This document shows, piece by piece, positions 41,951-49,948 of a stretch of 64,000 bases of DNA (position 1 is the first letter of the stretch; each line of letters begins with the position of its first letter). Origin of the DNA: Jannaschia pagri (lineage in GTDB: Bacteria > Pseudomonadota > Alphaproteobacteria > Rhodobacterales > Rhodobacteraceae); assembly GCF_019655435.1 (NCBI RefSeq), contig NZ_BPFH01000005.1, positions 310,001 to 374,000 on the forward strand, read 5' to 3'. A program made the position numbers and the translations under genes. The notes below the pieces were generated by a model. That model had not been told where the DNA came from. It did no database searches and saw only the letters and a program-made list of their open reading frames with translations.

Positions 41951-43177
41951 ATGCCGACCGAACGTTTCACCTTTGCCGGACATGACGGCAGCGCCCTGGC
42001 CGCCCGTTTAGACCTGCCCGACGGACCGGTGGGCGCCACCGCACTGCTGGCCCATTGCTTCACCTGCGGCAAAGACATCGCGGCCTCCCGCAGGATTGCG
42101 GCACGACTGGCAGCGATGGGAATCGCCGTCCTGCGCTTTGACTTCACCGGGCTGGGCCATTCCGGTGGTGAGTTCGAGAACACGTCCTTCACCTCCAACG
42201 TGGATGACCTGCGCGCGGCGGCGACGGCTTTGGAGGCCAGGGGCCTCGCCCCGAGTATCATCATCGGGCACTCCTTAGGCGGGGCAGCCGTTTTGCGCGC
42301 GGTCGGCGATATGCCGACGGTCAAGGCTGTGGTCACCATCGGCGCGCCGTTTGACCCCGGCCACGTCACCCATAACTTCGACAACGCCCTGGAGGATATC
42401 GCCCGGGACGGCGCCGCAGACGTGGTTCTGGGCGGACGCAAGCTGCGCATTGGGCAAGGGTTCGTCGAGGACGTCTCCGCCCAGGCGCTCGCCCCCGCCA
42501 TCCGGGACCTGAACCGTGCGCTCCTGGTCCTGCATGCACCGCGCGACATGACCGTGGGGATCGACAATGCCACGCGCATTTTCGTTGAGGCCAAGCACCC
42601 GAAAAGCTTCGTCACCCTAGACGACGCCGACCACCTTATCACCCGTCAGTCGGATGCAGATTACGCGGCAGATGTAATCGGGGCCTGGGTCAGCCGGTAT
42701 GTCGACATCACCCAGCCCGCGCCTCCCATCGGCGCGCCAGAGGGTGTGACCCGCGTGACCGAGGCGGATCCAGCGGGGTTTGCCCAGGACATCGTTGCGG
42801 GCGGACAGCATCACGCCCGTGCCGATGAACCTGCCGCCTATGGCGGAACAAACCAGGGTATGACGCCCTATCAGTTGCTGGCCGCCGCCCTGGGGGCCTG
42901 CACCTCGATGACCATGCGCATGTACGCGCGGCGCAAGGGATGGCCGATGGATCAAGTGGCTGTCGATGTCACCCATGACCGGATGCACGCCCAGGACGCG
43001 CCCTCCGCGACGGAGCGGATCGACCGCTTTCGTCGTGAGATCACAGTCACAGGTCCTCTCGATGTCGATCAGCGGCGGCGCCTTCTGGAGATTGCGGACA
43101 AATGCCCGGTGCACCGCACCTTGGAGGCCGGCGCCGAGGTCGAGACCGTTCTGTTGGAACCGGAAACCCAAGACTGA
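41951..43177 (+). CDS. Alpha/beta hydrolase-OsmC fusion protein
   Basis: The 408-residue protein joins two domains. Residues 1 to about 240 are an alpha/beta hydrolase: oxyanion region LLAHCFTCGKD, nucleophile Ser108 in GHSLGG, an acid in LHAPRD and His in LDDADHLI. Residues about 270-405 are an OsmC-like peroxidase domain with both redox cysteines, Cys317 in LGACTSM and Cys385 in KCPVHR. OsmC reduces organic hydroperoxides. The fusion is known in other bacteria, so substrate cleavage may be coupled to peroxide reduction. The SD (AAAGGA) is near the ATG at 41951. Confidence 0.93.
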   Translation: MPTERFTFAGHDGSALAARLDLPDGPVGATALLAHCFTCGKDIAASRRIAARLAAMGIAVLRFDFTGLGHSGGEFENTSFTSNVDDLRAAATALEARGLAPSIIIGHSLGGAAVLRAVGDMPTVKAVVTIGAPFDPGHVTHNFDNALEDIARDGAADVVLGGRKLRIGQGFVEDVSAQALAPAIRDLNRALLVLHAPRDMTVGIDNATRIFVEAKHPKSFVTLDDADHLITRQSDADYAADVIGAWVSRYVDITQPAPPIGAPEGVTRVTEADPAGFAQDIVAGGQHHARADEPAAYGGTNQGMTPYQLLAAALGACTSMTMRMYARRKGWPMDQVAVDVTHDRMHAQDAPSATERIDRFRREITVTGPLDVDQRRRLLEIADKCPVHRTLEAGAEVETVLLEPETQD

Positions 43178-46845: not shown

Positions 46846-47274
46846 ATGGACTTGCTGCCTTTGGACGACACAACATCCGTCGCCCCCCAATTGCATCCCG
46901 AAGAGATGGCGGAGCTTGCGGCAACGGGCGTGACAGCCGTCATCTGCAATCGCCCCGACGCAGAGGTCCCGCCCTCGCACCAGGCAGCCGCCATGCAGGC
47001 CGCCGCCGAAGCCGCAGGTCTCGCCTTTGTCTTTAACCCCGTGTCGATGCCCAACATGACGATGACGGCCGTCGAAGAGCAGGGTGACGCCATCGACGCC
47101 GCGGAGGGCAAGGTTGTCGCTTATTGTGCGTCCGGCACCCGGTCCGCTGTTCTCTGGGCGCTCAGCCAGACCGGACGCATGACCCCGGATGAGATCTTGG
47201 CGGCGACGGAACGGGCGGGCTTCCAATTGGGCGGCCTCCGCCCGCAGTTGATCGCCCTGGCCGAGGACGCGTGA
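46846..47274 (+). CDS. TIGR01244 family sulfurtransferase/phosphatase-like protein
   Basis: The 142-residue protein matches the DUF442/TIGR01244 family: SVAPQLHPEEMAELAATGVTAVICNRPD near residue 10 and a CX5R loop AYCASGTRSAVLWAL near 92. The fold is dual-specificity phosphatase-like, and members act on persulfides. GGAG lies nine bases before the ATG. It leads the operon with the thiocyanate hydrolase-like genes, so a sulfur-linked role is plausible but not shown. Confidence 0.82.
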   Translation: MDLLPLDDTTSVAPQLHPEEMAELAATGVTAVICNRPDAEVPPSHQAAAMQAAAEAAGLAFVFNPVSMPNMTMTAVEEQGDAIDAAEGKVVAYCASGTRSAVLWALSQTGRMTPDEILAATERAGFQLGGLRPQLIALAEDA

Positions 47275-47276
47275 CC

Positions 47277-47630
47277 ATGGCGGACAGCGATTACTTGGGC
47301 CCGGGACGGCGCTGGCACGACATGGGCGGCGACCTTGCCGGTCCTGTCCCCACCGCAGACCACGATTTCGCCCTGTGGGAGAAACGGGTGGACGCCCTGG
47401 TGATCCTGTCCGGTCTCAAAGGCGTGTTCACGGTCGATGGGTTGCGCCGCGTCCTGGAAGACATGGGACCGGAGGCCTTTGAGACCATGACCTATTACGA
47501 ACGCTGGGTTGCGGCCTTGAACCAAAATCATCTGGAGCAAGGCACCTATACGGTGGCCGAATTGGCCACCAAAATGGCCGAGGTTCAGGCCCGTGGCGCC
47601 ACCTATGGTGCGGCAAACCATGTCCCCTAG
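47277..47630 (+). CDS. NHase beta-N / thiocyanate hydrolase beta-like subunit
   Basis: The 117-residue protein matches the N-terminal half of nitrile hydratase beta: WHDMGGDLAGPVP near residue 14, FALWEKRVDALVILSG near 30, and TMTYYERWVAALNQNHLEQG near 70. In thiocyanate hydrolase this half is a separate subunit (ScnB). It could instead be the small NHase accessory protein, which shares the fold. The GAGGA-to-start distance favours the ATG at 47277 over a GTG at 47271 that overlaps the previous stop. The stop overlaps the next gene by 11 bp. Confidence 0.75.
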   Translation: MADSDYLGPGRRWHDMGGDLAGPVPTADHDFALWEKRVDALVILSGLKGVFTVDGLRRVLEDMGPEAFETMTYYERWVAALNQNHLEQGTYTVAELATKMAEVQARGATYGAANHVP

Positions 47631-47934
47631 CGCGGCACCTGAGGCGCCGACGGGGTGCTGGCTGCCAGGCACGGCCGTCCGCGTCCGCGCGCTGATGCCG
47701 CCGGGACATGTGCGCACGCCGGCCTATCTGCGCGGAAAAACCGGCGTTGTGGAACGCGTCCTTGGCCCATTCGGCAACCCCGAGCAGCTTGCCTACGGCC
47801 ATGCCACGACGCCCCTGCCCCTGTATCGCGTGCGCTTTCATCTATCAGATCTTTGGCCAGACGCTGCGGCCAGCACCGACACCCTCGACGCCGAAATATA
47901 CGCCCATTGGTTGGAGCCTGCGGATGCCCCATGA
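47620..47934 (+). CDS. NHase beta-C / thiocyanate hydrolase alpha-like subunit
   Basis: The 104-residue protein matches the SH3-like C-terminal half of nitrile hydratase beta: GTAVRVRALMPPGHVRTPAYLRGKTG near 17, VERVLGPFGNPE near 45, LYRVRFHLSDLW near 68 and DAEIYAHWLEPA at the end. Split N- and C-halves are characteristic of thiocyanate hydrolase (ScnB, ScnA) and of a few three-subunit NHases. It overlaps both neighbours by 11 bp, giving tight coupling. Confidence 0.78.
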   Translation: MSPSAAPEAPTGCWLPGTAVRVRALMPPGHVRTPAYLRGKTGVVERVLGPFGNPEQLAYGHATTPLPLYRVRFHLSDLWPDAAASTDTLDAEIYAHWLEPADAP

Positions 47935-48577
47935 CCACCCCGATCACGACGCGCCCGACGGGCTGTCGCCCTCTGGCCATCCGTACCGTGCGGATCAGGA
48001 CACCGACCTGACCTATTGGCAGACGTTGGAAATTGCCGTCCGTGAGTTGATGATCGACAAGGGCGTCGTCACACCTGCCGAAGTCACGGCCCAGGTGGAG
48101 GCCATGGACGCGCGCAGCCCCGCCGACGGCGCCGCCGTCGTGGCGCGGGCCTGGACGGACGCGGCATTCCGTGCGCGACTGCTCTCTGACGGCTCCGCCG
48201 CCTGCGCCGAGATGGGGTTCGATGTGGGCCCCATGAAGCTGATCGCGGTCGAAAACACACCCGAGGTTCACAACGTCATCGTTCGCACGCTGTGCAGCTG
48301 CTACCCGCGGAACCTGCTGGGCCTGCCGCCCGATTGGTACAAAAGCCGCGCCTACCGATCCCGCACAGTGCGGGAGCCGCGCGCCGTCTTGGCGGAGTTC
48401 GGATTGGTCCTGCCAAGCAGCACGACCGTCCGCGTTCACGATTCGACAGCGGATATGCGCTATATCGTTCTGCCCATGCGCCCCGATGGCACCGACGGGA
48501 TGACCGCTCAGGACCTGGCGAAGCTCGTGACGCGAGACGCCATGATCGGCGTTGGCGTCGCACGGGCACCAGCGTGA
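47924..48577 (+). CDS. NHase alpha / thiocyanate hydrolase gamma-like subunit with altered metal motif
   Basis: The 217-residue protein is the catalytic-type subunit. It has the WYKSRAYRSRTVREPRAVL segment, VRVHDSTADMRYIVLPMRP and LVTRDAMIGVG typical of the family. The metal-binding site normally reads CxLCSC. Here it is Arg121-Thr-Leu-Cys124-Ser-Cys126 (VRTLCSCYPR), so the first Cys, the axial ligand, is Arg (CGC at 48284-48286). One C-to-T change would restore it. The enzyme may be inactive, altered, or a variant family. The ATG at 47924 has GGAG seven bases upstream. Confidence 0.82.
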   Translation: MPHDHPDHDAPDGLSPSGHPYRADQDTDLTYWQTLEIAVRELMIDKGVVTPAEVTAQVEAMDARSPADGAAVVARAWTDAAFRARLLSDGSAACAEMGFDVGPMKLIAVENTPEVHNVIVRTLCSCYPRNLLGLPPDWYKSRAYRSRTVREPRAVLAEFGLVLPSSTTVRVHDSTADMRYIVLPMRPDGTDGMTAQDLAKLVTRDAMIGVGVARAPA

Positions 48578-48975
48578 TTTCCCATGTCTGCCTCGGCAGC
48601 ACCGACCTACCCCGCTCCCACCGGTTCTTCACGGCGCTGCTGACGCCCCTGGGTCTGACCGAGGTTATCATGGGCACGAATGGCGAACCGCCCGTCTTGT
48701 GTTGGCACCAGCCAGGGACAACAGCACCGCGCCTTTATGTGGCGATACCGTTTGATGATCGTCCTGCGACGGCCGGCAACGGGTCCATGCTGGCCCTCTC
48801 CGCGCCCTCACAGGCGGCGGTCGACGCCGCCCATGCCGCTGGCCTCGCGGCAGGTGGCACCGATGAGGGAGCGCCTGGCCCACGTCCACACTACGGGCCC
48901 GACTACTATGGCGCCTACCTGCGCGATCCCGATGGCAACAAGCTGCATCTTGTCCATGCAACGGGCACCGCGTGA
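48574..48975 (+). CDS. VOC family (glyoxalase-like) protein
   Basis: The 133-residue protein has the vicinal-oxygen-chelate fold: ISHVCLGSTDLPRSHRFFTAL at the start, PRLYVAIPFDDR near 48, and PDYYGAYLRDPDGNKLHLVH near 108. It may bind a metal through the early His and later His/Glu residues. It starts at a GTG overlapping the previous stop (GTGA) and belongs to the thiocyanate hydrolase-like operon, so it may act on the same substrate or a product. Confidence 0.85.
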   Translation: MISHVCLGSTDLPRSHRFFTALLTPLGLTEVIMGTNGEPPVLCWHQPGTTAPRLYVAIPFDDRPATAGNGSMLALSAPSQAAVDAAHAAGLAAGGTDEGAPGPRPHYGPDYYGAYLRDPDGNKLHLVHATGTA

Positions 48976-48982
48976 GGGGCCT

Positions 48983-49030
48983 AAGACTTTTCAACGAAAA
49001 GTCTTTCCAGAGTTTTCAGCGAAAACTCTG
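48983..49030. terminator. Two tandem perfect hairpins between convergent genes
   Basis: AAGACTTTTC-AAC-GAAAAGTCTT (48983-49005) and CAGAGTTTTC-AGC-GAAAACTCTG (49008-49030) are perfect 10-bp stems with 3-nt loops, two bases apart. They fill the gap between the VOC gene and the oppositely oriented permease gene, so a bidirectional terminator is likely. Confidence 0.65.
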
Positions 49031-49036
49031 CCCCCT

Positions 49037-49948
49037 TCATCGACCGCGCAGCCGCGGATCCAGGGCGTCGCGTAGACCATCCCCGACGTAGTTGATCGAC
49101 AACACCACGAGGGAAATCGCAAGACCAGGCCAGAACGCCCGTCCCGGGTAGTTCTGTAAGTACTGCACCCCGTCATTCAGAAGACGTCCCCACGTCGGGA
49201 AATCCGGCGGAAACCCTAACCCAAGGAACGACAAGGCCGACTCCGTGATGATCGCCGTGGCAATACCCAAGGTGGCAGACACCATGATCGGCGACAGCAC
49301 ATTGGGCAGAATGTGCCGCGTGATGATCCGGGCGGGTGGCGTTCCAATGGAGCGGGCGGCCAAAACAAACTCCCGCTCCTTCAGGGCCAGGACATCGCCG
49401 CGCACGATCCGAGCCGTTTGCATCCAAGAGGTGATCCCGATGGCCGCCACGATCAGAATAAAGATCCCCGTCTCGACCCCAAAGGCGGCGGTGAGCGGCT
49501 CCCGAAACAGCAGCACCATCACCAAGAGCAGCGGCAGCAACGGCAAGGCCAAGAAGAGATCGGTCAGGCGCATCAACAGGCCGTCCAAGCGCTTGAAGTA
49601 GCCCGCCAAAACACCGATCAGCGTGCCGAGCAGCAAACTCAACCCCATGGCCGTCAATCCGACCGCCATGCTGATGCGCCCCCCCGCGATGACCCGGGCA
49701 AAGATATCGCGGCCCAGTTGGTCGGTGCCCATCGGGTGCGCCCAACTCATCCCTTGGTTGCGAGAGCGAATGTTGGTCTGCGTCGGGTCCAAGGGCCAGA
49801 GGTATGGCCCCAGAACGACCAACAGAACGATGGCGAGGAAAAAGCCGGCCCCGATCAGCGCGCCCTTATGGCTGCGAAACTGATCCCAAACATCCCACCA
49901 CTGACTGCGGGCCGCATGTGTCAGGTCGGTTGCAGTGGCGTCAGTCAT
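49037..49948 (-). CDS. Peptide/nickel-type ABC transporter permease (DppC-like)
   Basis: The 303-residue permease has an N-terminal cytoplasmic stretch, a first helix near residue 33, the MGTDQLGRDIFARVIAGGRISM segment near 73, and the EAA loop EFVLAARSIGTPPARIITRHILPN near 192. FLGLGFPPDFPTWGRLL is typical of DppC/OppC. It overlaps the partner permease gene by 8 bp. It is last of SBP-permease-permease on the minus strand. Confidence 0.93.
   Translation of the reverse strand: MTDATATDLTHAARSQWWDVWDQFRSHKGALIGAGFFLAIVLLVVLGPYLWPLDPTQTNIRSRNQGMSWAHPMGTDQLGRDIFARVIAGGRISMAVGLTAMGLSLLLGTLIGVLAGYFKRLDGLLMRLTDLFLALPLLPLLLVMVLLFREPLTAAFGVETGIFILIVAAIGITSWMQTARIVRGDVLALKEREFVLAARSIGTPPARIITRHILPNVLSPIMVSATLGIATAIITESALSFLGLGFPPDFPTWGRLLNDGVQYLQNYPGRAFWPGLAISLVVLSINYVGDGLRDALDPRLRGR

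Follow-up and report, generated by a model that had tools for sequence, protein, structure and literature searches.

An operon in a 64,000-nucleotide stretch of Jannaschia pagri DNA (contig NZ_BPFH01000005.1, positions 310,001 to 374,000; hereafter the window) encodes a catalytic (alpha) subunit of the nitrile hydratase (NHase) and thiocyanate hydrolase (SCNase) kind in which the first cysteine of the metal-site motif is replaced by arginine. This residue, Arg121, is private to this genome among the genomes examined and is not a trait of its lineage. Very probably, it is either a recent mutation that removed a metal ligand, with a presumed loss or crippling of activity, or a base-call error. 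The surrounding architecture is shared by relatives: a beta subunit split into an N-terminal (betaN) and a C-terminal (betaC) gene, both upstream of alpha, and two arginines that resemble those of SCNase. The features on which the argument turns are the following.

47924..48577, + strand: NHase alpha / SCNase gamma-type catalytic subunit, 217 amino acids (PF02979 NHase_alpha, E 9e-80)
48284..48301, + strand: metal-site motif R121-T-L-C124-S-C126; first codon CGC (Arg), Cys in relatives

Arg121 occurs in a single genome

A sequence-only reading of this DNA had reported arginine at the start of the motif, and this was verified: the codon is CGC, and the context is HNVIV-R121-TLC124-S-C126. The motif was first read in 110 loci, 80 of them from named genome contigs and 30 taken from 37 relatives' matches, the window being one of the 30 and seven matches staying outside this reading. 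It was CTLCSC in 109 loci and RTLCSC in the window alone. In an enlarged set, CTLCSC was present in 138 of 140 loci, and both RTLCSC entries (L001 and L119) were the window. After the removal of duplicates, 142 alpha rows were aligned, and 141 had cysteine at the site, among them 9 SCNases, 33 ordinary NHases, and all 94 other rows of the clade described below.

The motif was also sought with DNA patterns, which are blind to alpha genes with another altered motif residue. An any-codon pattern was found in 195 of the 394 genomes of the family, and 194 of these 195 are accounted for by 146 genomes (150 matches listed) and a further 48 (50 matches). Among the 150 matches listed, read by eye, cysteine was seen everywhere but in the window; the 50 matches of the other 48 genomes all carried it. 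A pattern requiring arginine was found in one of the 394 genomes, that of the window itself.

The nearest alpha relatives on named contigs come mostly from Jannaschia species and are up to 81% identical. In a hand-picked Jannaschia group of 17 rows, which includes the window and one Thalassobacter, the other 16 rows all keep the order sulfur transferase, betaN, betaC, alpha, and all have cysteine. In three of these 16 (L002, L098, and L105), a VOC gene lies directly 3′ of alpha. The genome of L098, from the same genus, also holds another NHase-alpha match, less closely related (E 9.7e-69). The sequence-only reading had taken cysteine in close relatives with the same operon to speak for a private mutation or a sequencing error, and these 16 rows have exactly that combination. 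It had also entertained a clade defined by arginine and sharing the same neighbors, which is rejected, as the residue is present in 1 of 142 alpha rows and 1 of 394 family genomes.

Age of the change and signs of decay

Of the alpha columns that never vary in the other 91 clade rows, 69 in number, the window departs from one, that of Arg121; it keeps all 24 such columns of betaN and all 16 of betaC. Because Arg121 is private and its column is the sole invariant one broken in alpha, the residue can be attributed to a recent substitution or a base-call error. The ratio of nonsynonymous to synonymous differences (pN/pS) is 0.305 in the window alpha, which ranks 11th from the bottom among the 17 members of the Jannaschia group (0.206-0.400); betaN and betaC each rank 3rd lowest in that group, and the sulfur transferase ranks 4th lowest. 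We see no sign of an alpha gene long free to decay; the change is recent or is absent from the organism itself. A long-standing pseudogene is rejected on the same grounds, namely a single broken invariant alpha column and an ordinary pN/pS.

The arginine codon CGC is one base away from TGC, the cysteine codon common among relatives, and this distance fits both mutation and error. Other than R121, the alpha residues found in the window only are A10 and S165. A compensating private cysteine was also considered and rejected, since the only alpha cysteine outside the motif, C94, is present in 22 of 92 rows.

The metal site and the expected effect of arginine

We take the first cysteine of the motif to be the axial ligand of the metal. 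In excerpts of the NHase literature, the metal is held by three cysteine sulfurs, one axial and two equatorial (PMC7193024), the motif is given as CXLC(SO2H)SC(SOH) (PMC3511329), and the beta subunit residues R52 and R157 bind the oxidized cysteines (PMC7193024). Two arginines are constant in the clade: R57 of betaN in 90 of 90 rows and R38 of betaC, within PAYLRG, in 92 of 92. The column of betaN R57 holds arginine in all 32 ordinary NHase rows and in all five split-beta rows from outside the clade, and that of betaC R38 is less strict (26/32 and 4/5, respectively). By our own matching of the numbering, R57 and R38 appear to correspond to betaR52 and betaR157, with R38 presumably being betaR157 or its equivalent.

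In intact relatives, alpha would bind the metal through the three cysteines of CTLCSC, two of them oxidized, and the beta arginines would steady the oxidized residues, as in characterized NHases. In the window, one private base difference would turn the first of these cysteines into arginine. Such a replacement of one ligand would most likely stop metal uptake or activity.

Mutation or error

A real and recent loss-of-function mutation in the strain or species, in which alpha would be a pseudogene of recent origin or an inactive allele still segregating, has about an even chance of being the correct account. It agrees with a single base difference that occurs in just one genome and in an otherwise undamaged gene; moreover, as 68 of the 69 invariant columns are spared, a real change must be young or tolerated. 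Nevertheless, alpha shows no further decay, and the species is represented by one genome.

A base-call or assembly error, in which case the real gene would have cysteine and be an ordinary member of the clade, is a serious contender, even if its chances fall somewhat short of even. The quality of the assembly speaks against it: the source genome (3.9 megabases in 18 contigs, with one NHase-alpha match) is rated 99.97 for completeness and 0 for contamination, and the five frames of the operon are open throughout. Nonetheless, the isolated base difference in an undamaged gene of a single genome is also what an error would leave. A precedent is found in an excerpt of PMC3323583, where a lone active-site change in a Karenia NHase is treated as a possible sequencing or assembly artifact.

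Several points weigh against attributing Arg121 to either of these causes. The residue is known from one genome of the species, so that either may be the cause; in addition, the first reading covered 30 of the 37 relatives' matches. The end branch of the window measures 0.48 in a 103-row tree with a median of 0.22 (in a 67-row tree, both the branch and the median are 0.21). The window betaC has six row-only residues, the 5th highest number of 92, and the window sulfur transferase departs from its 26-row alignment at two positions that are otherwise invariant. Given the long branch and these betaC and sulfur transferase residues, some extra change may have taken place in the operon.

A split-beta clade with features of NHase and SCNase

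The product of the operon would be a three-chain, split-beta enzyme of the NHase/SCNase superfamily, predicted to be of the cobalt type. The Rhodobacteraceae split-beta clade to which it belongs comprises window 47277-48577 and loci L002-L081, L093-L110, L113, and L116-L118. Five further split-beta operons with the motif YPR lie outside the family (L111, L112, L115, L130, and L150), two of them, L130 and L112, on long branches. As references for SCNase, we used the nine loci that exceed the TIGR03887 cut-off; these came from a draw of 369 genomes in another class, 9 of which passed it, and in a phylum-wide draw, 0 of 398 genomes exceeded it.

The window alpha passes the NHase model TIGR01323 (255.9 bits; cut-off, 249.85) and fails the SCNase model TIGR03887 (200.5 bits; cut-off, 291.45). 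All 26 members of a clade alignment match both models at E <= 1e-50, the best values being 7.1e-80 with the NHase alpha model and 7.1e-63 with that of SCNase gamma. The window alpha is 42-45% identical to the 9 SCNases, 46-58% to the 33 ordinary NHases, 55-69% to the five other split-beta proteins, and 64-81% (median, 73%) to the 94 Rhodobacteraceae clade rows. In the tree, ordinary NHases stand on one side of a 100/100 branch and all split-beta enzymes on the other; the order among the split groups and the root are unsettled, and long branches meet there.

In Thiobacillus, the SCNase genes are arranged as scnB-scnA-scnC. The order betaN-betaC-catalytic, in separate frames, is present in the five other split loci and in SCNase loci L141-L149; in one of the latter, L144, no betaN was seen and the locus starts close to betaC. 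In 22 ordinary NHase loci, alpha comes first, and beta is a single frame in 20 of them. The remaining two, L120 (790-1520, - strand) and L151 (2063-2751, + strand), are YPW-type NHases whose beta halves occupy two overlapping frames after alpha, through either a separate split or a frameshift.

Likeness to SCNase extends to two arginines, one of which follows CSCYP.

48302..48310, + strand: Y127-P128-R129, with Arg where ordinary NHases have Trp/Phe/His; a clade feature

In NHases, the position that follows CSCYP looks onto the substrate pocket, and SCNase binds thiocyanate with arginines. All 9 SCNases, all five other split enzymes, and all 95 Rhodobacteraceae rows have R129 in alpha, and none of the 33 ordinary NHases does. 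Similarly, R58 of betaN is found in 8/8 SCNases, 3/5 other split enzymes (the other two have Lys), and 93/93 Rhodobacteraceae rows, and in 1/32 ordinary NHases. Among the alpha columns listed, 11 are common to NHases and the split clade and different in SCNases, and 6 show the reverse pattern. H116, N117, and P135 are among the residues that NHases share with the clade, and they differ in 9 of 9 SCNases.

The enzyme can be compared with one characterized system on each side. With cobalt-type NHases (PDB 3qxe, 1ire, and 2dpp), which are its best PDB matches, it shares the alpha fold and motif family, the TIGR01323 assignment, and both beta arginines. It differs from them in having beta split in two genes, the order betaN-betaC-alpha, arginine where they have Trp after CSCYP and, in the window only, arginine for the first cysteine; moreover, no accessory protein was detected. 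With SCNase (PDB 2dd4), it has in common the split beta, the gene order, YPR, and a double arginine in betaN; unlike it, the window enzyme is below the TIGR03887 cut-off, lacks the SCNase-only residues, is 42-45% identical in alpha, and has no activator gene seen next to it.

That the operon encodes a genuine SCNase, in ancestry and in substrate, is unlikely. In favor of this are the split beta with its N and C halves, in that order, ahead of the catalytic gene, the presence of R129 and betaN R58 as in the nine SCNase loci (betaN being seen in eight), and the position of ordinary NHases beyond the 100/100 branch. Nevertheless, its identities are higher to ordinary NHases than to SCNases, its TIGR03887 score is some way below the cut-off, the residues that set SCNases apart are of the NHase kind, and no activator gene was seen beside the operon or detected in the genome. 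The likeness to ScnB-ScnA-ScnC put forward in the sequence-only reading consequently stands for the split, the gene order, and the two arginines, but does not extend to the SCNase model (200.5 vs 291.45 bits). The SCNase-like layout is confirmed as a trait of the clade, and we class the window enzyme with the NHase superfamily, as a split-beta member whose layout and two arginines recall SCNase, and not as an SCNase.

A member of this clade may already have been described. In an excerpt of Marron et al. (2012, PMC3323583), the NHase beta of Roseobacter sp. CCS2 is called 'truncated' and is not termed a split subunit. From that description, it is probably a half from this split clade.

Maturation and the activator

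According to an excerpt of PMC3511329, an activator gene accompanies many NHases and SCNase, and the title of one reference reports that some NHases need no activator. No P15K-type activator gene was seen beside the window operon. A search of the whole genome with the activator model TIGR03889 found none, the best score, 12.7 bits vs 46, lying inside betaN; two ordinary activators used as controls scored 103.6 bits (L125) and 62.1 bits (L133). A search of the genome with PF21006 (E 5) returned betaN and a sub-threshold stretch of alpha only, so that the betaN of the operon is the only such chain detected. A betaN-like stretch follows gamma in 6 of 9 SCNase loci only, and three of these score E 0.0002-0.003 with PF21006. 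Given such weak scores for the P15K-like genes of SCNase, the genome may hold a divergent activator.

The operon and its neighbors

The window region 46846-48975 (+ strand) encodes five proteins head to tail, and the five-gene set is far beyond chance. All five frames and the families assigned to them in the sequence-only reading were found. The genes other than alpha are listed here.

46846..47274, + strand: TIGR01244-family sulfur transferase (rhodanese/DSP-like), 142 amino acids (NCBIfam TIGR01244, 126.1 bits; cut-off, 85.85)
47277..47630, + strand: NHase beta-N half (betaN), 117 amino acids (PF21006 NHase_beta_N, E 5.5e-18)
47620..47934, + strand: NHase beta-C half (betaC), 104 amino acids (PF02211 NHase_beta_C, E 6.6e-22)
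48574..48975, + strand: VOC/glyoxalase-fold protein, 133 amino acids (PF00903 Glyoxalase, 24.3 bits; cut-off, 20.6)

Three junctions overlap, by 11, 11, and 4 bases, the last where the GTG start of the VOC gene overlaps the alpha stop. The gap between the sulfur transferase and betaN is 2 bases when counted from the ATG, and becomes an overlap should translation begin at the GTG at 47271. The window betaN aligns to PDB 3qxe_B and also matches 2dd4_B, and betaC matches the C-terminal halves of NHase beta and the SCNase alpha chain 2dd4_A. In the sulfur transferase, the Cys94 loop CASGTRS is intact, and the loop cysteine is present in 26 of 26 sulfur transferase rows.

The sulfur transferase is near alpha in at least 26 of 92 clade rows, most of them from Litoreibacter and the Jannaschia group; for a VOC relative, the number is at least 6 of 92, window included. 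Both counts are lower bounds, since certain loci are short or run into the end of a contig. Both were rejected as clade-defining partners. The core enzyme is explicable without either, and neither looks needed for the chemistry of the clade; the different chemistry with the sulfur and VOC proteins, one of three options in the sequence-only reading, is not supported. Of the 80 named loci, 48 have a FliG-like gene upstream, and none of these is among the 17 that bear the sulfur transferase; 59 (9 of those 17) have a gene of the lipid A acyltransferase family downstream, and DUF1223 and aconitase genes are neighbors in 55 and 51, respectively. These FliG-like, lipid A acyltransferase, DUF1223, and aconitase neighbors gave no clue to the substrate.

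That Arg121 is functional, as part of a remodelled metal site or of a metal-free enzyme with new chemistry, is very improbable: the frame is intact, pN/pS is ordinary, and both beta arginines are kept, but the residue is shared by none of the relatives examined (141 of 142 alpha rows and the relatives with the same gene order have cysteine), no private ligand co-varies with it (A10 and S165 being the other window-only residues), and the gene neighbors are those of cysteine-bearing relatives.

Two further observations concern the DNA around the operon. Between its end and a leftward gene at 49037-49948, two tandem perfect 10-base inverted repeats (48983-49030) form a possible bidirectional terminator; a terminator scan did not list them. 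At 41951-43177 there is a long frame that, by eye, appears to be an alpha/beta hydrolase fused to an OsmC-type domain.

Meaning for the family

A lone change from cysteine to arginine, read in one genome, is no ground for a new metal site, and a false lead is thereby removed. The remaining interest is the clade, an NHase/SCNase intermediate that is common in Rhodobacteraceae. In the open-licence literature (titles and abstract starts), nothing was found on arginine at this site, on a Jannaschia NHase, or on a split-beta NHase in Rhodobacteraceae, which is weak evidence of absence. Both NHases and SCNases are enriched in Alphaproteobacteria, according to an excerpt of a 2023 survey (PMC10098168).

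Tentatively, and with the balance of probability still against it, the split-beta clade, made up of Rhodobacteraceae and a few other bacteria, may represent an unrecognized third branch between NHase and SCNase, Arg121 being left aside. Its R129 and R58 would form a positive pocket for a small anion, for instance thiocyanate or a nitrile bearing a carboxyl group, and the free betaN would double as the metal-loading activator.

Common Rhodobacteraceae genes that match TIGR01323, 'nitrile hydratase alpha', are accompanied by a split beta and SCNase-like arginines. Because these matches are combined with such features, the substrate assigned to the clade may be of either kind, which can be tested. 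The answer would help to show which marine organisms break down thiocyanate or nitriles.

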